Shown: one piece after another, positions 3,551-13,727 of the stretch
Layout: each line of letters opens with the position of its first letter
Numbering within the stretch: position 1 is the stretch's first letter
Assembly (NCBI GenBank): GCA_025352695.1
Contig: JANXSK010000122.1
Location: 1 to 64,000 of the forward strand
DNA from: Ferruginibacter sp.
GTDB taxonomy: Bacteria; Bacteroidota; Bacteroidia; Chitinophagales; Chitinophagaceae
Direction of reading: 5' to 3'
DNA length: 64,000 nt
Position numbers and translations under genes: made by a program
The notes under the pieces: model-generated
What the model saw: the letters and a program-made list of their open reading frames with translations, nothing else
What the model was told of the DNA's origin: nothing
Databases searched by the model: none

Positions 3551-5704
3551 ATGTACAATATTCAGCAAACATTACAACAATACTTTGGCTATAATTCTTT
3601 TCGCCATAATCAGGAAGAAATTATCGACAATGTATTGGCAAAAAAGGATAGTATTGTTTTAATGCCAACGGGTGGTGGTAAATCTTTGTGTTACCAGATT
3701 CCTGCATTGGTGTTGGAAGGCGTTACAATAGTAGTGTCGCCCTTGATTGCATTGATGAAAGACCAAGTAGATGCGTTGAAATTAAATGGTGTTGCAGCAG
3801 CTTTTTTAAATTCTTCCCAATCTTCTTCCGAGCAGGCTGCTATTATTCAGCAATTAAAAAATGGCCGCCTTAAATTATTATATGTAGCACCCGAACGTTT
3901 GCTGGGGCAGAATGGATTACTTAATTATTTAAAGGAGATTAAAGTATCGTTGTTTGCCATTGATGAAGCACATTGTATTAGCCATTGGGGGCATGATTTT
4001 AGGCCGGAATATTTAGTGCTGGGGCAATTAAAAAAACAGTTTCCTGCGGTACCAATTATTGCCTTAACAGCTACGGCTGATTCGCTTACAAAAAAGGATA
4101 TTATTCAGAAGCTGGAAGTAACGGATTACACCGTGTATGAAAATTCTTTTAACCGGCCTAACATTAGTTATTATATCCAGCAAAAGCGAAATTACTTTAG
4201 TCAGTTAATCAGTTTTTTATCTGAACATAAAGAAGATAGTGGTATTATTTATTGCCTTAGCCGCAGCTCGGTTGAAAAGCTTGCTACAGATTTAAAAGAG
4301 GCAGGATATGCTGCAGCAGCATATCATGCAGGGCTGGATAAAAATATTAAAGAGCAAAATCAGGATCGTTTTTTAAAAGATGAAATAAAAATTATTGTGG
4401 CAACAATTGCCTTTGGTATGGGTATTAATAAAAGCAATGTACGGTTTGTAGTGCATGTTGATTTACCAAAAAATATTGAAGGGTATTACCAAGAAACAGG
4501 TAGGGCTGGAAGAGATGGATTACCCAGTGAAGCTATTTTATTTTACAGTTCGGCAGATGTGTTTAAATTAAAAAGTTTTGCCAGGGTAGAAGGTAATGAA
4601 GCACAGAGCAAAGTAATGCTAAAAAAGCTTGATCAGATGGCTGCATTTTGCGAAACACGGCAATGCCGCCGCAAGTATTTATTAAATTATTTTGATGAAC
4701 CTGCTGCTAATTTTTGCGGTAGTTGCGATGTATGTTTAAGCCAGGAAGAAAAAGCAGATGCAACGATTGAAGCCCAAAAATTATTGAGTGCTGTAACCCG
4801 TTTGCAGGAAAGGTTTGGTATAAATTATGTGATTGATTTTTTAAGAGGAAGCAGTACTACCAAAACTGAACACCAGTCTATTAAAACGTTTGGCATAGGT
4901 AAAGATATTAGTAAAGATCAATGGAAAGTATATGTAAGAGATATGTTGCAAATGGGATACCTGCAACAGAGTGATACAGAATATCCTGTACTGCAATTGA
5001 ATGCCGTAAGCAGGCAGATATTGAAAGGTGAAATGAAAGTGATGCTGGTAAAATCTGTTTCTGTAAACAAAGAAATAGTACAAAAAAGCAGTGTGGAAGA
5101 ACCTGTGCATCCAGACCTGTTTAAAAAACTAAAAGCCATCCGGTATGATCTGGCGAAAGCCGAAAATGTAGCGGCCTTCCAGGTTTTTAGTGATGCTACA
5201 TTGGTCGAACTGGCTACTTACTTGCCACTCACTAATGCAGCACTGGCCAAAATTTCCGGCTTTGGGGATATTAAACTGGCGAAATACGGCAACCAGTTTT
5301 CAGATGCCATTATAGATTATTGCAGGGCTAATAACCTCACTACAAAAATTGATGCAAAAGTACCCAAGCGGCAACGCAAATCTTCTGCCGTTGAAAAAAC
5401 TATAGATACCAAAAAGCTAAGCCAGCAACTGTTTCAACTGGGCCGGTCGGTTGATGAAATTGCTTTTGAAAGAGGTCTCTCCACTGGTACTGTTGAAGGC
5501 CACCTGGCACATTTTATTTTCTCCGGTGAACTGAAAATTAATGAACTGGTAAATGCAGAAAAGTTGAAAGTTATTGCCGGCGCCATAAAAGCAAATAACA
5601 ACAGCATTGCCGTTGCACCCATAAAACAAAAGCTCGGCGATGGTTATAGCTACGGAGAAATTACTGCTGTGATGAATTATTTGCGACGGATGAGTGAGGC
5701 GTAA
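3551..5704 (+). CDS. recQ: ATP-dependent DNA helicase RecQ
   Basis: A 3'-5' DNA helicase of recombination and replication repair. Walker A is TGGGKS near residue 40; the DEAH box reads AIDEAHCISHWGHDFRPEY near residue 137; TATAD (motif III), IIYCLSRSSVE (motif IV), and GRAGRDGLPS (motif VI) follow. The zinc-binding cysteines of the RQC region are in CETRQCRRKYLL...CGSCDVC at about 366-395. An HRDC-like domain occupies about 520-600. After it comes a helix-turn-helix-like tail (RSVDEIAFERGLSTGTVEGH) as in the helicase-associated C-terminal domain of longer RecQ forms; 717 residues fits that class. It converges with the gene ending at 5706, with one base between stop codons. Confidence 0.96.
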   Translation: MYNIQQTLQQYFGYNSFRHNQEEIIDNVLAKKDSIVLMPTGGGKSLCYQIPALVLEGVTIVVSPLIALMKDQVDALKLNGVAAAFLNSSQSSSEQAAIIQQLKNGRLKLLYVAPERLLGQNGLLNYLKEIKVSLFAIDEAHCISHWGHDFRPEYLVLGQLKKQFPAVPIIALTATADSLTKKDIIQKLEVTDYTVYENSFNRPNISYYIQQKRNYFSQLISFLSEHKEDSGIIYCLSRSSVEKLATDLKEAGYAAAAYHAGLDKNIKEQNQDRFLKDEIKIIVATIAFGMGINKSNVRFVVHVDLPKNIEGYYQETGRAGRDGLPSEAILFYSSADVFKLKSFARVEGNEAQSKVMLKKLDQMAAFCETRQCRRKYLLNYFDEPAANFCGSCDVCLSQEEKADATIEAQKLLSAVTRLQERFGINYVIDFLRGSSTTKTEHQSIKTFGIGKDISKDQWKVYVRDMLQMGYLQQSDTEYPVLQLNAVSRQILKGEMKVMLVKSVSVNKEIVQKSSVEEPVHPDLFKKLKAIRYDLAKAENVAAFQVFSDATLVELATYLPLTNAALAKISGFGDIKLAKYGNQFSDAIIDYCRANNLTTKIDAKVPKRQRKSSAVEKTIDTKKLSQQLFQLGRSVDEIAFERGLSTGTVEGHLAHFIFSGELKINELVNAEKLKVIAGAIKANNNSIAVAPIKQKLGDGYSYGEITAVMNYLRRMSEA

Positions 5705-5705
5705 G

Positions 5706-6257
5706 TTAATCGTTCATATTTTTAGTCATCCACTCTGCCTGGGAACCCGCTGTTTTTTCTATCGTTACCTTATTGGCTATTTTACCCTGACCTTTAATAA
5801 TTGACTCTGTTACATAAGAATGTTCGATGGCTTCACTTTCTTTCATCCCAAACAGCTTTATCAGCGGAATCATTTTATCGCTCCCAAAATGTTTAAACAA
5901 CGGTTCGTCCATAGCACTGAAAATGGGAATGTTTGTAAGCTGCCAGTCTTTTACCAGTTCCAGTTCTTTTGCAGGCAATGGGTAATGTTCTAAAAATACA
6001 GGTTGATGGTTTTTTAGTATGGCTATATCTATTTTATCGACCGTTGTTATTCTGGCCTCATCAATTCCATTCTGTAAGAAAAATACTTTGTACGTTTTGG
6101 CTGTTTCATTAAACCATGCGATAAAAATAGCTTCCGGTTGTGTTTTGGCTAATTGCATGCAGGCATTCATTTTGCCGGTTGAATGGATGTATACTTTGTC
6201 TTTAAAAACAGCAGGAGATTCGGTGTCTTCTTTTTTGCCGAATAGAGTTGATAACAT
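5706..6257 (-). CDS. Small SecA-related protein without ATPase motor
   Basis: 183 residues of cytoplasmic character with no signal peptide. Residues about 118-160 (PLFKHFGSDKMIPLIKLFGM, then EAIEHSYVTESI...GQGKIANKV) resemble the SecA stretch in which the second nucleotide-binding fold ends and the helical scaffold begins (DLM.RFG.D....LM..LG.....IEH..V..SI..AQ.KVE). The front half (IFIAWFNETAKTYKVFFLQN, PVFLEHYPLPAKE) could be an alpha/beta core equivalent to that second fold. Walker A and DEAD boxes are absent, so it cannot be a translocation motor. Function unknown; automatic annotation may call it SecA. It is read away from uvrA and convergent with recQ. Confidence 0.7.
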   Translation of the reverse strand: MLSTLFGKKEDTESPAVFKDKVYIHSTGKMNACMQLAKTQPEAIFIAWFNETAKTYKVFFLQNGIDEARITTVDKIDIAILKNHQPVFLEHYPLPAKELELVKDWQLTNIPIFSAMDEPLFKHFGSDKMIPLIKLFGMKESEAIEHSYVTESIIKGQGKIANKVTIEKTAGSQAEWMTKNMND

Positions 6258-6394
6258 GGAGGATGTTTGTGGGGTGCAAATTAGGGAAAGATCATGTGCA
6301 TTTAATTTTGCAATGTTTTATGCAAAATTAGAAATTAAGAATCAACAAGTGATAATAGTAGAACCTTTTCGAATTGACAAATAGGGAAATATGA

Positions 6395-7315
6395 TTAAGA
6401 ATAAAGTTTCTCAATTTCAGAACACCAAGATTTTATATTGGTGTAAAGTGTATCATTAATTTTATTCGGTAAGTAATCTATAATTCTAAACCTATCGAAA
6501 ACTAAACCAGCCTCATTTGCCCTTGGTGTCCAAATTTCTTTGGGGAAATATTGAGCACAAAAGAACATTCTTATAGGTTTTAAAACAGGTTGTTTGGAAA
6601 ACCATGTATTACAAAAGGCATCTGCATTAAGTTCTGATAATCTATCTTGCCAACTGGTACCTGTTTTACATTGACCAAAAGCAATAATTTGTGAGACTTT
6701 TTTATCTGTGAAACCTTTCCATGCGATGACATCAATATTGTCATCTTGAGGATGATATGCATCATGTTTATGAATCTCCCCACCTTCTCCTATTTTTTTT
6801 GCTATGAGACTTAACTTGTTTCTAAAACCAACAACATCGGTATTGCTGGTACCTAATATTTCCACATTTGAATTCTCTCCAAAAAAAGAAACCGCAATTT
6901 CTGCTGATAGGTTTTCAAACAATTTTGTGCCGTCAATACCATTCTGAATTTTATCATTTGTCATATTCAGCCGGGTTGATAATAACAGAAAGCGATAAAC
7001 TAAGGTAAAAAGATTTTCATCATGATTATATTTTAAAGTGTAGTCATTATTTTGTAATTCAAACGGGTATTGATTTCTGGTGTGATCTTTTCTGTTTTTA
7101 ATCTCTGATGAAATTTCATCCAGTTTATTAATGAATTTATCTGTGTCGTCTTCAATGCCATTAATAATTAGTTCATCGGAAACTAACATCGGAGATTTTA
7201 TTAAATCTAATAAAGAAAGACTGCCCCTTTTTTTGAGAGCTTTATATTCAGCATAATCAGCCCATTCCTGAGATGATGTTCTGAGATTCGGTATGCCATT
7301 CGGTATTTTAAACAT
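6395..7315 (-). CDS. Putative PD-(D/E)XK-type nuclease of a methyltransferase/ParB module
   Basis: 306 residues, no signal peptide or membrane segment. I do not recognise a named family. A likely nuclease core can be read: a helix with glutamate in LFENLSAEIAVSFFG (about 131-145), DDNIDVIAWKGF with acidic residues, then a strand ending IIAFGQCKTG, where Q-C-K matches the (D/E/Q)-x-K element of restriction-endonuclease-like folds such as Mrr. This assignment is inference from motif order and spacing. It is the last gene of a three-gene unit: its start lies two bases after the stop of the ParB-like gene. That context, behind an adenine methyltransferase, supports a restriction or defence role. 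Alternative: a DNA-binding accessory protein. Confidence 0.6.
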   Translation of the reverse strand: MFKIPNGIPNLRTSSQEWADYAEYKALKKRGSLSLLDLIKSPMLVSDELIINGIEDDTDKFINKLDEISSEIKNRKDHTRNQYPFELQNNDYTLKYNHDENLFTLVYRFLLLSTRLNMTNDKIQNGIDGTKLFENLSAEIAVSFFGENSNVEILGTSNTDVVGFRNKLSLIAKKIGEGGEIHKHDAYHPQDDNIDVIAWKGFTDKKVSQIIAFGQCKTGTSWQDRLSELNADAFCNTWFSKQPVLKPIRMFFCAQYFPKEIWTPRANEAGLVFDRFRIIDYLPNKINDTLYTNIKSWCSEIEKLYS

Positions 7316-7317
7316 AA

Positions 7318-8445
7318 CTATTCGTCTCCAAAAATTCTTTTTTTCTGTTCAATAATTCCCTGTAAAGATTTCCATTTCTGCTCCATCGCATCATACAGGT
7401 CATCTGCGATCTGAGCAATTGTAGCTGCATGTTTCAATAAACTTTCATCTTTACCATCAAATCCTTCTGTAAGATAGGATTGAGCCTTTTGGAGTGCCCT
7501 TTTAGCTTCTAATAAATTTTGTTCAAATGTTTTATCTTTAGGCTGACTTATTTCATAGGCTTGGATAAGTGAAACGCCATCTTTCAATGCAAGAACAGCT
7601 TCCTTATTTTTAATTACGGCTTCTAAATGTCTTAGGTCAGGATTTTGGGACTGAATTAGTGCGGGGGCATCATTCTTTTTGCTACCAAATAACCAAGTCA
7701 GCAATTCTTGAAGATTATCATACTTATCTTCAGGTACAGGATTTTTTTTATCTTCGGGAACATCCTTAATTGATAAAAACTCTTTAAAACCTTCGTAATT
7801 CAACCCGGTGTATAGGTGAGAAAAGTAAAGCCTTGGTGCTTGAATATCACCTCTGTCAAATCTTTTTAAATGCTCTGCTTGCTGAATTACCTGTAAACCT
7901 TGATAAAGTTTCTCTACTGTTTTATTTGTGTCTCCAATTTGAGATGCTATCTCATCTAAAGAAATTCCAAATTCATTTCTTATCTGAGAAATATATTGTG
8001 CTTTAGCATAACTTCCCCATTTCGCAGGTCCGTTTATATGTTTAAACCCTATAAATTTCCATGCATCTTCTCTTTTATTTACAAATATTACTGGTAATTT
8101 ATTTAACTGTTCTCTTACAGCAGGCGAAACTGCAAGAAGGTTTTTATTAAATCCGATATTGTCTGCATATATTGGATTTAAAATACATTTAACTGCCGCC
8201 AATCTCCTGTTGCCTTCAATAATTATATTCTTTCCTTTTTCTTTAATCCCAATTAGAGGTTCATTATCAAAAAAGCCACTTGCCTTTATGGACAAAACGA
8301 TTTCTTCAACGCCCATTACATTCCATAAGATTGAAATAATTTCTTCATCTTTTGCGGGTGATGAAATATTAAATTCTGAAATTCTGGGATTACTGGAATC
8401 AAATGAAAGTTCATCTGGACTTATGTAATCAATCTGTCTTTTCAT
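7318..8445 (-). CDS. ParB/sulfiredoxin-fold protein of the methyltransferase module
   Basis: 375 residues. The N-terminal 110 residues are ParB-like: MKRQIDYISPDELSFDSSNP is typical of the first strand, and IIIEGNRRLAAVKCI matches the ParB box (EGxRRLxA) that forms the nucleotide-binding or catalytic pocket. GFKHINGPAKWGSYAKAQYI and DEIASQIGDTNKTVEKLYQG next to it look like ParB motif II/III and a helix-turn-helix. The C-terminal half is helical with coiled-coil character. It is not a chromosomal ParB, since no parA or parS neighbour exists. Proteins of this layout are often found next to methyltransferases and nucleases; here it lies 12 bases after the methyltransferase gene and two before the nuclease candidate. 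Likely DNA recognition or CTP/ATP-dependent switch; exact role unknown. Confidence 0.82.
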   Translation of the reverse strand: MKRQIDYISPDELSFDSSNPRISEFNISSPAKDEEIISILWNVMGVEEIVLSIKASGFFDNEPLIGIKEKGKNIIIEGNRRLAAVKCILNPIYADNIGFNKNLLAVSPAVREQLNKLPVIFVNKREDAWKFIGFKHINGPAKWGSYAKAQYISQIRNEFGISLDEIASQIGDTNKTVEKLYQGLQVIQQAEHLKRFDRGDIQAPRLYFSHLYTGLNYEGFKEFLSIKDVPEDKKNPVPEDKYDNLQELLTWLFGSKKNDAPALIQSQNPDLRHLEAVIKNKEAVLALKDGVSLIQAYEISQPKDKTFEQNLLEAKRALQKAQSYLTEGFDGKDESLLKHAATIAQIADDLYDAMEQKWKSLQGIIEQKKRIFGDE

Positions 8446-8457
8446 AATTTTTTAATT

Positions 8458-9357
8458 CTATTCATTCAATAATGTCAGGTTTCCTTGACGATTTTTTATT
8501 GTAATATTTTCAGGTAGCTGCAAATCGTCACAAAAAACTAAAAGTTCGCTACCGAATTTTTTGGTTTGTAATGTGTAATTTAAATCAAAAGAAGACATTC
8601 TGTAATCTTCATACATTTCTTTTATCTCAGAAACATTATCATAGGAAACTAACCACTTTACATTTTCAATATTTCTGATTGTATTTGCTAAGTTTAAATG
8701 ATTATCACGTTTATAATTATTTAAGTATAGTTCTTTTCCTTTTTTATAATACGGAGGATCAAGATAGATGAAGGTTTCCTCTAAGACCAGATTATACATC
8801 TGAATATTATTCAAGATTTCAACAGCATCTAAATTGGTAAGAAATATATCATTCCTACGACCCGCTATTTTTTCAATTCGCTCAATCAGGTTTTCTTTAT
8901 TGAACCTCACGTCAATTTTATAGTTACCTGTTTGATTTAGACCACCAATCGGACCAGCCTTAAAAATAATACCAGAACGATTAGTCCTATTTAAAAAAAA
9001 TGTTGAAAATCCTAAATCTACAATATTTGTCCTTCGACCACTTTCAAAAATACTTTTCTGTTTATGCCATTCTTCAATGGTAATGGACGTGTTATTTATT
9101 CTATTTATAAAAGCCCTGGTATGATTTAGAATTGCATACCACATAGCATAGACATTATAATCGTAATCATTTATATGAATTCGATTAAAAGTGCCATTAA
9201 ATAATAAATTAAGAGCGGCTCCTGCACCACCAGCATATAATTCCAGATAAGTGCCACCAATAATACCATTCAGTTGCGCTATTTCATTTATAAAATTAGA
9301 AAGACAGGACTTTCCTCCTGGATATCTTAACGGGCTATGATTTAATGTTTTTGCCAA
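8458..9357 (-). CDS. DNA adenine methyltransferase, D12 class (Dam/M.DpnII-like)
   Basis: N6-adenine methyltransferase of the alpha class using SAM on double-stranded DNA. Motif X is SPLRYPGGKS at residues 8-17; motif I is YLELYAGGAGAAL (about 38-50), with ELYAGG replacing the usual EPFAGS; catalytic motif IV is YLDPPYY near residue 200. The 299-residue length fits the MethyltransfD12 family. The target sequence cannot be read from the protein; other Dam-like enzymes of this class often use GATC-type sites. It is the first gene of the module with the ParB-like and nuclease genes, so it probably protects host DNA rather than acting in mismatch repair. The start ATG (9355-9357) directly precedes the conserved N-terminus. 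Confidence 0.92.
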   Translation of the reverse strand: MAKTLNHSPLRYPGGKSCLSNFINEIAQLNGIIGGTYLELYAGGAGAALNLLFNGTFNRIHINDYDYNVYAMWYAILNHTRAFINRINNTSITIEEWHKQKSIFESGRRTNIVDLGFSTFFLNRTNRSGIIFKAGPIGGLNQTGNYKIDVRFNKENLIERIEKIAGRRNDIFLTNLDAVEILNNIQMYNLVLEETFIYLDPPYYKKGKELYLNNYKRDNHLNLANTIRNIENVKWLVSYDNVSEIKEMYEDYRMSSFDLNYTLQTKKFGSELLVFCDDLQLPENITIKNRQGNLTLLNE

Positions 9358-9380
9358 GAGTAAGTTATAAGTTTTTACAA

Positions 9381-9388
9381 CAAAATTA
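9381..9388 (-). promoter_or_regulatory. Candidate -7 promoter element of the methyltransferase module
   Basis: A perfect TAnnTTTG match (TAATTTTG on the minus strand) lies 24 bases before the methyltransferase start. No good -33 TTTG is found at the usual distance, so only the -7 box is supported. Confidence 0.4.
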
Positions 9389-9560
9389 AGCTACAAAATA
9401 TTGAACTTATCTTATTAAACAATCATTTTTCTTGTTTTTGCCTTTTAAAGCTACCTGTATCATTTTTATTAAGTAAATATGTATACAAAAATAACCCAAT
9501 TCCCCCCAACCAAACCCCACCCTTTTTGTTTTGTATCTTTACAATACAGTAAAATAATAC

Positions 9561-12452
9561 ATGGCCAACATAAAAAAATCTTCTGCAGAAGATACAATCA
9601 GCAACGAATTTATTGAAGTGTTTGGTGCTAGGGAGCACAACCTGAAAAACATTGATATAAAAATACCCAAAAATCAATTGGTCGTGTTTACTGGTGTTAG
9701 CGGCAGTGGCAAATCGTCACTGGCATTTGATACCATTTACAACGAAGGGCAGCGTCGTTACATGGAAAGTTTTAGTGCCTATGCCCGTCAGTTTGTAGGT
9801 GATATGGAACGGCCCGATGTTGACAAGATCACCGGTCTTTCTCCCGTTATCTCTATTGAGCAAAAAACCACCAATAAAAATCCACGCAGCACGGTGGGCA
9901 CCATTACAGAAATATATGATTTTTTGCGGTTGTTGTATGCAAGGGTGGGAGAGGCGTACAGCTACAACACCGGAAAAAAAATGGTGAAGTTTAGTGAAGA
10001 AGAAATTGTAACCAACATTTTTTTAAAATTTAAAAACAAAAAAATAAGTTTGTTGGCTCCATTGGTGCGTGGGCGAAAAGGGCATTACAGAGAATTGTTT
10101 GAAGACATCCGCAAGAAAGGTTATTTAAAAGTTCGTATTGACGGAACCGTAAAAGACCTTGTGCCAAAAATGCAAATTGACCGCTACAAAATTCATGACA
10201 TTGAAGTGGTGGTTGATAGATTGGCAGTAACGGATGATATGAAAGTGCGGTTAAGCCAGAGCGTACAAAAAACGCTTCAAGTAGGTAAAGACCTAATGTT
10301 TTTACTCATTAATGATGATAATAAAACGGTGCAGTATAGCAAGCAATTAATGTGCGAAGAAACCGGTATTAGTTATGAAGAACCTTCCCCCAATGCTTTT
10401 TCATTTAATAGTCCCTATGGTGCCTGCCCTATCTGTAAAGGTTTGGGTACTGTTTACACTATTGATATGGAAGAAGTACTTCCGGATAAAACAAAAAGTA
10501 TAAAGAACGGTGCTATTGTACCGTTGGGGGAAGAACGTGACGCCAGCGTATTTCAACAGGTAATAGTGTTTGCAAGAAAGCATAAAATTAATTTAGACAA
10601 ACCATTGAAAGACCTGCCACAAGAACAGGTAAATCTGCTATTGTATGGAGATCAACAGATTAATGCCGAATTGGAAATGGATCTTAGTGATGACACAATT
10701 CCACTGGAGTATACCGGTAGTTATGAAGGCATCATTCCGATGCTGAAAAGATGGTTTGCTTCGCCCAATAGTGGAGAAGCTTTAAGAGATTGGGTGGAGA
10801 AATTTATGCAGTTAAAAACCTGCGGTACTTGCAATGGAGATAGGTTGAGAAAAGAAAGTCTTTGGTTTAAAGTAGATGAAAAAAATATAGCTGAATTAGT
10901 GGCATTGAATTTAGATAAATTGGCTATATGGTTTGATGGAATAGAAAAGCGGTTAAGTAATAAACAAAATGCCATCGCCAAAGATTTGTTGAAAGAAATT
11001 AGAGATCGCTTACAATTTTTACTGGATGTCGGTTTAACCTATCTTACTTTAAACCGTTCTTCTAAAAGCCTCAGTGGTGGAGAATCGCAGCGTATCAGGC
11101 TGGCAACTCAAATTGGGTCTCAATTGCAAGGTATTACTTATATTTTAGATGAGCCAAGTATTGGTTTACATCAAAGAGATAACCAGCGCCTGATTGGTGC
11201 CTTGCAAAATTTGCGCAATATTGGTAATAGCGTTTTGGTAGTAGAACATGATAAAGATATTATGCTGGCAGCAGATTATTTAGTTGATATTGGCCCTAAA
11301 GCGGGTAAGCACGGCGGTGAGATTGTAGCTATGGGTACGCCGCAGGAAGTGTTGGATAGCAACAGCGATACAGCAAAATATTTAAGTGGCGCAAAAAGTA
11401 TTGCAGTACCTGCAGAAAGAAGAAAAGGCAATGGTAATTTTTTAGAATTAAAAGGCTCTAAAGGAAATAATTTAAAAAATGTAAGTGTAAAATTTCCATT
11501 GGGTAAATTGATATTGATAACTGGTGTAAGTGGCAGTGGAAAATCAACGCTTATCAATGAAACTTTGTATCCATTACTGAATAAACATTGTTACAATTCA
11601 AAAGCAATGCCGTTGGAATATAAATCTATTAGTGGCTTGGAGCATATTGATAAAGTAATAGAAATAGACCAGTCGCCCATTGGCCGTACGCCAAGAAGCA
11701 ACCCTGCAACCTATTGTGGTTTTTTTACCGACATCAGAACACTATTTGCACTTGTGCCGGAGGCAAAAATTCGTGGTTATACAGCAGGTAGATTTAGTTT
11801 TAATGTAAAAAGTGGCCGGTGCGAAGTGTGTGAAGGTGGCGGCATGCGGGTGATAGAAATGAATTTTTTACCCGACGTATATGTGCATTGCGAAAAATGC
11901 AATGGCAAGCGCTACAACAGAGAAACATTAGAGATACGCTACAAAGGAAAATCTATCAGCGATGTACTGGATATGACGGTAGATGAAGCAGTAGAATTTT
12001 TTCAGGCAGTACCGTTTATTTATCGTAAAATAAAAGTGCTTAAAGAAGTAGGACTTGGTTATATCACCCTGGGACAAAGTGCGGTAACCCTTAGTGGTGG
12101 CGAAGCACAGCGGGTAAAGTTATCAACTGAACTTGGTAAAAAAGATACCGGTAAAACTTTTTATATTTTAGATGAGCCAACAACAGGGCTTCATTTTCAG
12201 GATATACAACATTTACTGGAAGTGATTAATAAACTGGTAGACAGAGGTAACAGTGTATTAGTAATTGAACACAATATAGATGTTATAAAAGTCGCTGATT
12301 ACATTATTGATATTGGCCCGGAAGGTGGCGATGGGGGAGGATTGGTGTTGTTTGAAGGTGTGCCGGAAAATCTTGTAAAAGTAAAAGAAAGTTTTACAGC
12401 TAAATATTTGAAAATAGAATTAAATAATGACAAAGGACAGATGGGAAAATAG
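9561..12452 (+). CDS. uvrA: Excinuclease ABC subunit A
   Basis: Damage-recognition ATPase of nucleotide excision repair. It has two ABC ATPase halves: Walker A GVSGSGKSS near residue 47 and GVSGSGKST near 655; signatures LSGGESQRIRLA near 505 and LSGGEAQRVKL near 843; Walker B ILDEPSIGLH and ILDEPTTGLH. The second zinc module is complete (CEVCEGGG...CEKCNG at 753-780). The first zinc site has only one cysteine in its first pair (MCEETG) although the second pair CPIC is present, and an early Cys/His pair seen in E. coli is replaced by SYNTGKKM. At 963 residues it is a canonical-length UvrA. A TATCTTTA sequence at 9534-9541 may be the -7 box. Confidence 0.96.
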   Translation: MANIKKSSAEDTISNEFIEVFGAREHNLKNIDIKIPKNQLVVFTGVSGSGKSSLAFDTIYNEGQRRYMESFSAYARQFVGDMERPDVDKITGLSPVISIEQKTTNKNPRSTVGTITEIYDFLRLLYARVGEAYSYNTGKKMVKFSEEEIVTNIFLKFKNKKISLLAPLVRGRKGHYRELFEDIRKKGYLKVRIDGTVKDLVPKMQIDRYKIHDIEVVVDRLAVTDDMKVRLSQSVQKTLQVGKDLMFLLINDDNKTVQYSKQLMCEETGISYEEPSPNAFSFNSPYGACPICKGLGTVYTIDMEEVLPDKTKSIKNGAIVPLGEERDASVFQQVIVFARKHKINLDKPLKDLPQEQVNLLLYGDQQINAELEMDLSDDTIPLEYTGSYEGIIPMLKRWFASPNSGEALRDWVEKFMQLKTCGTCNGDRLRKESLWFKVDEKNIAELVALNLDKLAIWFDGIEKRLSNKQNAIAKDLLKEIRDRLQFLLDVGLTYLTLNRSSKSLSGGESQRIRLATQIGSQLQGITYILDEPSIGLHQRDNQRLIGALQNLRNIGNSVLVVEHDKDIMLAADYLVDIGPKAGKHGGEIVAMGTPQEVLDSNSDTAKYLSGAKSIAVPAERRKGNGNFLELKGSKGNNLKNVSVKFPLGKLILITGVSGSGKSTLINETLYPLLNKHCYNSKAMPLEYKSISGLEHIDKVIEIDQSPIGRTPRSNPATYCGFFTDIRTLFALVPEAKIRGYTAGRFSFNVKSGRCEVCEGGGMRVIEMNFLPDVYVHCEKCNGKRYNRETLEIRYKGKSISDVLDMTVDEAVEFFQAVPFIYRKIKVLKEVGLGYITLGQSAVTLSGGEAQRVKLSTELGKKDTGKTFYILDEPTTGLHFQDIQHLLEVINKLVDRGNSVLVIEHNIDVIKVADYIIDIGPEGGDGGGLVLFEGVPENLVKVKESFTAKYLKIELNNDKGQMGK

Positions 12453-12477
12453 CGAATGTGGTTTCAGGGGTAAGCAG

Positions 12478-12496
12478 GTGTATACAAGGTATACAC
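12478..12496. repeat. 8-bp palindrome with 3-base centre
   Basis: GTGTATAC (12478-12485) and GTATACAC (12489-12496) are perfect reverse complements around AAG, 26 bases after the uvrA stop codon. It lacks a T tract, so it is not an intrinsic terminator. It could be a protein-binding site or chance. Confidence 0.4.
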
Positions 12497-12610
12497 GGCT
12501 TTGATTAATATTTCCCTTCTATCGCTTTGCCATTATTCAATTGGTTATTAGATGGAAAAATCTCTTTGGTATCAGTATAAATCTTTTAGATTATAAATGC
12601 AACTTCACAA

Positions 12611-12712
12611 TTAACCTCCTTGAGATTTGTTATACAGCATTGCCAACATACAACAGGTAACCAATATAATCATTTTAAAAAGTAGGGGATTAGTTTGCAA
12701 ATTGTTTTTCAT
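12611..12712 (-). CDS. Possible small membrane peptide (33 residues)
   Basis: An ATG-started frame of 33 codons lies 25 bases downstream of the DUF6089-like gene on the same strand. It encodes a polar N-terminus (MKNNLQTNPLLFK), one hydrophobic stretch MIILVTCCMLAMLY, and a short tail NKSQGG ending in TAA. One transmembrane helix is plausible. No family is recognised and there is no ribosome-binding site to support it. The rest of the interval 12453-12737 holds only the palindrome at 12478. Confidence 0.35.
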   Translation of the reverse strand: MKNNLQTNPLLFKMIILVTCCMLAMLYNKSQGG

Positions 12713-12737
12713 AATTAGGATGTTTTATTATTAGTAT

Positions 12738-13727
12738 TTAAAATCTTGCAGGGCATCGCATTTGGTTGGCCGATCTCGGACTATTTTCGCCACCTCTGTT
12801 ACCACCTATCTTTATGCCTAGTTTAAATAAAAACGAAAAATAGGCATCATTATTTTTTGGATTACCACGTTGGAACCCTGGATCTGTACGTGTTAAGGTA
12901 CCAGAAGATTTATCATGAATCTGTAATGCAATATTGGCATCAGCAGCAGGTAAATATTTGTTGAATAAAGACGGATCTATATAGGTAGTACTTACATCAT
13001 CTATATAATCTGTAAATGTCTTTCTATATAACAATTCAATACCCACATTCATGTTGTCTGTCAATAAATATTTCAGTCCGGCCCCCATCGGTATATTTAT
13101 TTGTGTCAGCGAATAGTTCGGCCTGTTGGGATATTCGGGAAATCCCTCACCCTCTGTATGCAACGGATGTAAATAATGCCAGGTTTTATTTCCATTTTGA
13201 TCAGTAAGTGAACCCTGTGGATTAAAATGAAAAAGACCTACACCTGCAAATACATAAGGCCTAAGTAACGGCTGATAATCCTCGTTATTTTTGTTTAACA
13301 TCATTAAAGGAAATATTTCAACAGCTGTATAAGCTTCCCAAACATCACTCCTAAAATCAAGGTTACGAGACTTTCTAAATGATTCAGGCCTCCCATCAGT
13401 TACTATAATTTTATCTTCCCCAGCCAGGTAAGTATATTGAGCCGCAAGCCTAAATCCCAGCCATTCATTTGGATGGATACTTAAAAAGGCACCCTTCATT
13501 AACTTTGTCAACGGAATATTTAAATCCTTAATAAATGTAGTGCCATAACCACGGTGACCACCCAAATCCCCCAAAAAAAATGTTGGTCCAAAATTTAATC
13601 CAATTTCAATATTCATTTTATCATTTCCAAGCCTAACGTGTTGAGCGTAGATGGAGTGAGTAGTTAAAACGGTTAGCAGAAATAATAGCAGACTTCTATA
13701 AATAAAATAGTGTAAACGATTTTTCAT
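12738..13727 (-). CDS. DUF6089-like outer-membrane beta-barrel protein
   Basis: The ATG at 13725-13727 begins a good signal peptide (MKNRLHYFIYRSLLLFLLTV, cut after YAQ), so it is preferred over the in-frame ATG 22 codons upstream (13793). The mature protein has alternating aromatic/small strands typical of a small barrel, with NIEIGLNFGPTFFLGDLGG at the start and RPYVFAGVGLFHFNP and NIPMGAGLKYLLTDNMNVGIEL in the middle. The C-terminus ends RCPARF, a form seen in DUF6089 family proteins. No enzymatic motif. The family has no established function; an outer-membrane location is inferred. Confidence 0.7.
   Translation of the reverse strand: MKNRLHYFIYRSLLLFLLTVLTTHSIYAQHVRLGNDKMNIEIGLNFGPTFFLGDLGGHRGYGTTFIKDLNIPLTKLMKGAFLSIHPNEWLGFRLAAQYTYLAGEDKIIVTDGRPESFRKSRNLDFRSDVWEAYTAVEIFPLMMLNKNNEDYQPLLRPYVFAGVGLFHFNPQGSLTDQNGNKTWHYLHPLHTEGEGFPEYPNRPNYSLTQINIPMGAGLKYLLTDNMNVGIELLYRKTFTDYIDDVSTTYIDPSLFNKYLPAADANIALQIHDKSSGTLTRTDPGFQRGNPKNNDAYFSFLFKLGIKIGGNRGGENSPRSANQMRCPARF

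Follow-up and report, generated by a model that had tools for sequence, protein, structure and literature searches.

The module described here lies in a 64,000-nucleotide stretch of a Ferruginibacter sp. contig (JANXSK010000122.1; this whole stretch is hereafter called the window), where three minus-strand open reading frames (ORFs) span positions 9357-6395 and are separated by gaps of only 12 and 2 bases, as a preliminary description of this DNA had reported. In the order of reading, they encode a D12-class N6-adenine DNA methyltransferase (M; 8458..9357, 299 aa, with a TTG start), a ParB-like subunit (7318..8445, 375 aa) and a nuclease subunit, named P3 in the following (6395..7315, 306 aa); all module features given below are on the same strand.

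The product of the first gene matches PF02086 in Pfam (1.5e-16) and shows, as described beforehand, the motifs SPLRYPGGK, ELYAGGAGA and DPPYY, which we take to be motifs X, I and IV. Its best PADLOC model is PD-Lambda-5_B (4.5e-115 over residues 6-289), followed by a type II methyltransferase model (1.9e-97). This genome has no other D12 match, and one C5 match was found elsewhere in it.

The second gene product is predicted to adopt the ParB/KorB/Noc fold, with an NTPase domain and a helix-turn-helix (HTH) domain. Indeed, its residues about 1-140 (8026..8445) align with nucleotide-bound ParB structures and KorB, residues about 142-286 (7588..8022) form the HTH DNA-binding domain, and residues about 301-366 (7348..7545) form a C-terminal helical segment (helices 303-323 and 334-362) that may serve dimerisation. 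The EGNRRLAA box described beforehand is present. Within this box, EGNRR (residues 77-81; 8203..8217) aligns with the GERR of solved ParB chains and is the counterpart of ParB's GERR phosphate motif. Each of its five residues is identical in all 112 aligned ParB-P3 pairs of the survey presented below; the GERR glutamate is thus not kept (GNRR in 112/112), and the GxxR form is retained. Note that Pfam ParB_N matches 13 of 74 ParB-family members (best 8.8e-5) and not the window protein, and that Rab11, returned when the single ParB-like protein was compared with the PDB, was rejected as spurious. According to PMC12704722, nucleotide specificity is not predictable from sequence.

For the third gene, the preliminary description had proposed a nuclease core of the form E...ID-V...QCK, and had named a non-nuclease fold as the outcome that would speak against it. 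The AlphaFold2 model (pLDDT 89.9, pTM 0.90) gives a winged helix (residues 12-98; 7022..7282) followed by a predicted PD-(D/E)XK nuclease domain (residues about 100-293; 6437..7018), an alpha-beta core with D ... (E/Q)xK. The predicted active site, D195 ... Q215-x-K217 (6665..6733), falls within the stretch NIDVIAW...FGQCK and aligns with the D..QAK stretch of the restriction enzyme MspJI, whose residues there are presumably catalytic. MspJI is the sole credible PDB match of the P3 profile (E 0.038, at this very stretch) and is also nearest to P3 by Foldseek probability, and several PDB titles among the structure matches presumably denote nuclease families. The single P3 sequence had no match in the PDB, a Pfam scan of 82 members of the P3 family gave no credible family, and in PADLOC 2 of these 82 matched mREase_II (best E 1.2e-4); P3 also matches PHROG 14650 (1.4e-21) and PHROG 3984 (1.2e-17).

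The model thus supports the proposed nuclease assignment; the lysine needs a correction. D195 is found in 112/112 and Q215 in 111/112 aligned members, and the QCK lysine had to be rejected as the family-wide lysine, since 105 of the 112 have Ala, Gly or Thr at window position 217 and Lys at 225, ten residues past the Q. Lys 217 occurs in seven members only (the window, L003, L004, L092, L093, L094 and L101, where L numbers denote surveyed loci), all but one of which no longer have Lys 225. Lysine migration occurs in PD-(D/E)XK enzymes, and such a reciprocal swap would be expected if either of two positions can provide the active-site lysine. A single starred branch of the tree contains all seven Lys-217 members, so that one event may account for the move.

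The survey of relatives comprised 124 distinct ParB-family ORFs of at least 250 aa. One locus cut by a contig end (L005) was excluded and 15 were dropped (L001, L002, L006-L015 and L022-L024), as duplicates of longer loci except for L022 and L023, which are decayed P3 fragments without a ParB match. Viral relatives came from two scans with the ParB alignment, represented by the best 80 of 87 and the best 80 of 99 matches; the viral scan with the sequence P0002 alone gave no match, and tblastn with P0003 found one plasmid record and no phage record. P3 adjoins ParB in 115 of the 124 (112 initially, plus L037, L109 and L116 on closer look, with P3 cut by the contig end in L037 and L116), and the pair spans phages, plasmids and bacteria. 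The nine ORFs for which P3 was not found, eight of which have 485-524 aa and the ninth 366 aa, all have a D12 methyltransferase within 3 kb, and the three of them that were scanned (in L003, L004 and L100) match PD-Lambda-5_A.

Of the 112 pairs, 106 have a DNA methyltransferase at a distance of no more than 1 kb, which is of class C5 in 67, D12 in 35 and N6_N4 in 4 (Pfam names of examples: PF00145, PF02086 and PF01555). It is present in 36 of the 40 clusters formed at 50% ParB identity, and the C5 and D12 ORFs of the 63 loci with long flanks are mostly close by (57 within 500 bp, 3 at 500-3000 bp, 11 beyond). In a FastTree phylogeny, the methyltransferase class changes at least four times among the 106, a rough number since many long branches meet there (L021 with L030 included). 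Moreover, Dyadobacter CY312 and Pedobacter Leaf194 share with the window the order of the triplet, the TTG start and the 2-base gap between ParB and nuclease, with first gaps of 9 and 4 bases, respectively. Because of this recurrence, and because over a hundred distinct loci combine the ParB-nuclease pair with a methyltransferase, the module is more than a chance arrangement. The preliminary description had made its proposal depend on the three genes staying together: ParB and nuclease are constant, and the methyltransferase is nearly so, with a varying family.

Pairwise identities give a sharper view of this association. ParB and P3 diverge together (r 0.97), whereas the correlation with ParB is 0.45 for C5 methyltransferases and 0.92 for D12 ones. 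In 178 pairs of C5 loci (involving 39 of 67 loci) the methyltransferases are at least 80% alike beside ParBs that are at most 45% alike; no D12 pair shows this. As an example, L026 and L027 share 98% identity in the methyltransferase, 33% in ParB and 20% in P3. The reverse pattern (ParB at least 65%, methyltransferase at most 45%) was found in no pair of loci. These comparisons suggest that in the C5 group ParB and P3 travel together and the methyltransferase travels separately, in the manner of restriction and modification. Provided that similar methyltransferases mark similar sites, a common target would be expected for such different ParB-P3 pairs.

Altogether, the module is best explained as a whole, with a probability of about 0.73, by a restriction-modification system whose restriction part consists of two subunits, the ParB-like protein and the PD-(D/E)XK nuclease. 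That the module is restriction-modification as such is highly probable, and the predicted function is well supported by anatomy and comparison. As in type II restriction-modification, a stand-alone DNA methyltransferase lies by a predicted PD-(D/E)XK nuclease with conserved catalytic residues; in contrast to it, the restriction part would be made of two proteins, one of them with a ParB NTPase fold. This split build, which recurs in many phages and bacteria, could not be matched to any named restriction system, and among the listed papers of the CC-licensed PMC literature, judged by titles, abstract starts and passages, none gave a description of the ParB, P3 and methyltransferase triplet. What weighs against a restriction-modification system are the six of 112 pairs with no methyltransferase within 1 kb (L021, L030, L032, L033 twice, and L070), although one of the L033 pairs has a C5 gene at 2.0 kb and the contig ends near L070. 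The P3 residues of the methyltransferase-less pairs in L021 and L030 look intact. L033 (4797-9636), a faecal phage contig, has two ParB-P3 pairs that differ from each other and are oriented face to face, with no methyltransferase found within 1 kb.

The nearness of MspJI, in sequence as in Foldseek probability, invites another explanation, in which ParB and P3 would, like MspJI and GmrSD, form a type IV-like nuclease that depends on modification, the methyltransferase having some other function. MspJI needs modified DNA, and its family shares with P3 the PD-(D/E)XK fold with D ... Q-x-K, but it is a single protein with no ParB partner. SspE uses a ParB-type NTPase domain with a nuclease against phage DNA. 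So does GmrSD (DUF262), according to PMC12373910 and PMC10952713, and GmrSD_N weakly matches 4 of the 74 ParB-family members (best 7.6e-4). However, the (I/V)DGQQR motif and the HNH or DUF1524 nuclease of GmrSD are absent from the module, which has EGNRR and a separate gene for a predicted PD-(D/E)XK nuclease. GmrSD and SspE, with DGQQR and HNH or DUF1524 nucleases, are modification-dependent, whereas the window's pair is associated with a putatively protective methyltransferase; a cutter of methylated DNA would presumably be dangerous beside the methyltransferase that accompanies nearly every pair. We consider this explanation quite improbable.

The preliminary description could not match the triplet to a named system, and the nearest one, PD-Lambda-5 (PMC9519451), has no more in common with it than the methyltransferase and the ParB part. 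The likeness comprises the methyltransferase family PD-Lambda-5_B and the N-terminal ParB and HTH part of protein A. The module might be a diverged PD-Lambda-5, in which PD-Lambda-5_A has been shortened to the ParB-like protein and its effector split off as the third gene. Besides the strong methyltransferase match given above, residues 9-170 of the ParB-like protein match PD-Lambda-5_A (2.5e-19), covering only 15-175 of 473 model positions, and the ParB and HTH part is common to PD-Lambda-5_A proteins, five examples of which align to a profile of 353 positions, starting at 3-5 and ending at 167-299. PD-Lambda-5_A, however, is one protein with a further C-terminal region (most PADLOC profiles have 428-613 positions) and PD-Lambda-5 has no P3 gene, whereas the window has a shorter ParB protein and a separate nuclease. 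None of the 82 scanned P3 members matches PD-Lambda-5_A, and one PD-Lambda-5_A profile run against the window's genome found only the N-terminal part of the ParB-like protein. Moreover, a full PD-Lambda-5_A lies beside the triplet in Dyadobacter CY312 (L003, 4369-8918; 4.4e-183) and in Pedobacter Leaf194 (L004, 5967-10402; 3e-170), so that both ParB-P3 and PD-Lambda-5_A accompany one methyltransferase, which argues for distinct systems. Membership in PD-Lambda-5 was rejected because the C-terminal region of the A protein is missing, and a diverged form of it is unlikely. None of the titles listed by a search of CC-licensed PMC literature pointed to a study of the PD-Lambda-5 mechanism. In the Pedobacter locus, an HNH_2 endonuclease gene (L004, 10479-11534) adjoins the PD-Lambda-5_A gene.

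In the favoured reading, with two restriction subunits, the methyltransferase, as its D12 family implies, would mark the target on the host chromosome. The ParB-like protein, given its predicted fold, would load through its HTH domain on the unmarked target and would close as a DNA clamp once an NTP is bound in the EGNRR pocket. The loaded clamp would then recruit or activate P3, the winged-helix PD-(D/E)XK nuclease suggested by the modelled fold and the conserved residues, and the DNA would be cut. The earlier proposal of the ParB-like protein as an essential third component is supported by the constant pairing and the co-divergence of this protein with the nuclease; the further suggestion of a sequence reader or a nucleotide switch is compatible with the predicted fold in both forms. 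KorB and Noc are sequence readers and are among the closest folds of the ParB-like protein. These clamps share with it the NTPase fold and the HTH domain, as predicted here, and differ by the ParA partner, which the window module does not have, by GERR instead of EGNRR, and by the constant nuclease partner of the window's protein. The specific role of a ParB clamp as reader falls somewhat short of even odds. In a variant that overlaps with the two-subunit restriction reading, the winged helix of P3 would read the sequence, and the ParB-like protein would be an NTP-dependent activator or regulator. P3 does have its own winged helix, and the co-divergence of P3 and ParB fits either protein as reader; what stands against this variant is indirect, namely that KorB and Noc read sequences, and we hold it to be rather unlikely.

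In Dyadobacter and Pedobacter, one methyltransferase seems to serve two ParB-based effectors. These four-gene loci suggest that the clamp module has two outputs round one shared methyltransferase, namely DNA cutting (P3) and the PD-Lambda-5_A effector. We put forward, as a tentative proposal, a new restriction class in which a ParB-type NTP-gated clamp recognises the sequence, loads where it is unmethylated and thereby licenses cutting by a PD-(D/E)XK nuclease that is a protein of its own, the clamp module having two outputs. If true, recognition and cutting would be in separate proteins of a restriction-modification build, and recognition would rely on the ParB fold, best known from chromosome segregation. 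PD-Lambda-5 would in addition gain a sister system with a common methyltransferase, and ParB domains might then be sensors of the state of methylation in general.

Copies in other cellular genomes bear on the same question. Within the phylum, matches to the P3 profile occur in 10 of 345 genomes, counting that of the window, and 2 of the 12 places are remnants; C5 methyltransferase, ParB and P3 are adjacent in one genome (G380), and in the second copy of another (G264) the methyltransferase and ParB frames are open and P3 is broken by a stop. Among 5426 E. coli genomes, a pair of the Wphi type occurs in 103 and one of the 12474III type in 36, and the Wphi methyltransferase gene matches 139, each over at least 80% of its length (identity at least 99% in 103 and 90-95% in 36), so that pair and methyltransferase are equally numerous. 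An insertion sequence (IS) splits the pair in 2 of the 60 Wphi-type matches listed and in 3 of the 36 of the 12474III type (GF47, GF50 and GF54, split at the same place and thus probably by one event), and no IS split occurs among the 60 methyltransferase matches listed. The two cases inspected have IS5 in P3 and IS1 in ParB, and the methyltransferase beside each is annotated and uninterrupted. Copies seen broken thus have the lesion in ParB or P3 and a whole methyltransferase, which would fit restriction-modification, since loss of the methyltransferase alone is expected to be lethal; this support is weak because events are few and the pair is more than twice as long as the methyltransferase gene, and we do not count it as a strong argument. 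E. coli W (NC_017635), a strain whose safe designation for laboratory use is stated in the abstract of PMC3032704, carries a complete relative, with the methyltransferase as ECW_RS21670, P3 as RS21675 and ParB as RS21680. The E. coli loci sit between the portal gene Q and gene A, a region which PMC9122126 presents as a P2 hotspot; the main text of that paper, as searched, contains neither 'ParB' nor 'methyltransferase'. Our proposal, if true, would offer a possible role for the methyltransferases and 'ParB' proteins of this gpA-gpQ hotspot of P2-like phages.

The preliminary description had placed the module between recQ and uvrA. This holds on one side, where uvrA starts at 9561 on the opposite strand; on the other, a 183-aa gene (5706-6257, minus strand) with no Pfam family intervenes before recQ. 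The intergenic region 9358..9560, shared with the divergent uvrA, would be expected to hold the module promoter if the module is an operon. Promoter-like sites in 6200-9700 (14, against 17.5 in shuffles) showed no excess, terminator-like sites (4, against 1.7, sd 1.2) were not used, and an Rfam search of 5000-10500 gave no match.

A search of 59 same-genus genomes for the 183-aa neighbour led to 17 loci, that of the window among them, in which a homologue was clear and which we inspected. Leaving the window aside, uvrA follows about 80-150 bp from this gene in 10 of 16 loci, where the site is therefore empty; of the rest, L190 has a gap of 1.4 kb and five have no uvrA within the available stretch, so that the site is empty in 10 of the 11 relatives where it is readable. 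None of the three module genes occurs in the 16 other stretches (up to about 1.5 kb either side), and P3 had no match in 35 same-genus genomes. The third-position GC content is 0.23-0.24 in the module versus 0.33 in recQ and uvrA and, together with the empty site in relatives, marks the module by sequence comparison as a foreign, inserted cassette. The same data touch on a further explanation, that of a plasmid or prophage partition (ParB) cassette with a passenger nuclease. Several members are annotated as ParB N-terminal domain or ParB partition proteins, and a ParA-like ORF was seen by eye upstream in the viral locus L134. The window module, however, has no ParA gene (the survey made no search for ParA), it sits between genes that adjoin in relatives, and its constant partner is a nuclease, mostly with a methyltransferase; this explanation, rejected for the missing ParA and the nuclease partner, is extremely improbable.

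In the close relative with the 1.4-kb gap (G366), this gap carries a YhcG (DUF1016) PDDEXK nuclease gene (L236, 737-1879), so that insertions may be frequent in the space from uvrA to the 183-aa gene, making it a possible hotspot. Elsewhere, L017 has a GmrSD_N (DUF262) protein (11523-13280) at a distance of about 0.5 kb from a ParB-P3-D12 module, a sign of a defence island. Finally, in the Balneolales contig that was excluded from the survey (L005, 1154-4824), an AAA_21/AAA_15 ATPase gene and a gene that is helicase-like by eye lie downstream of P3 and are possibly a further defence system.

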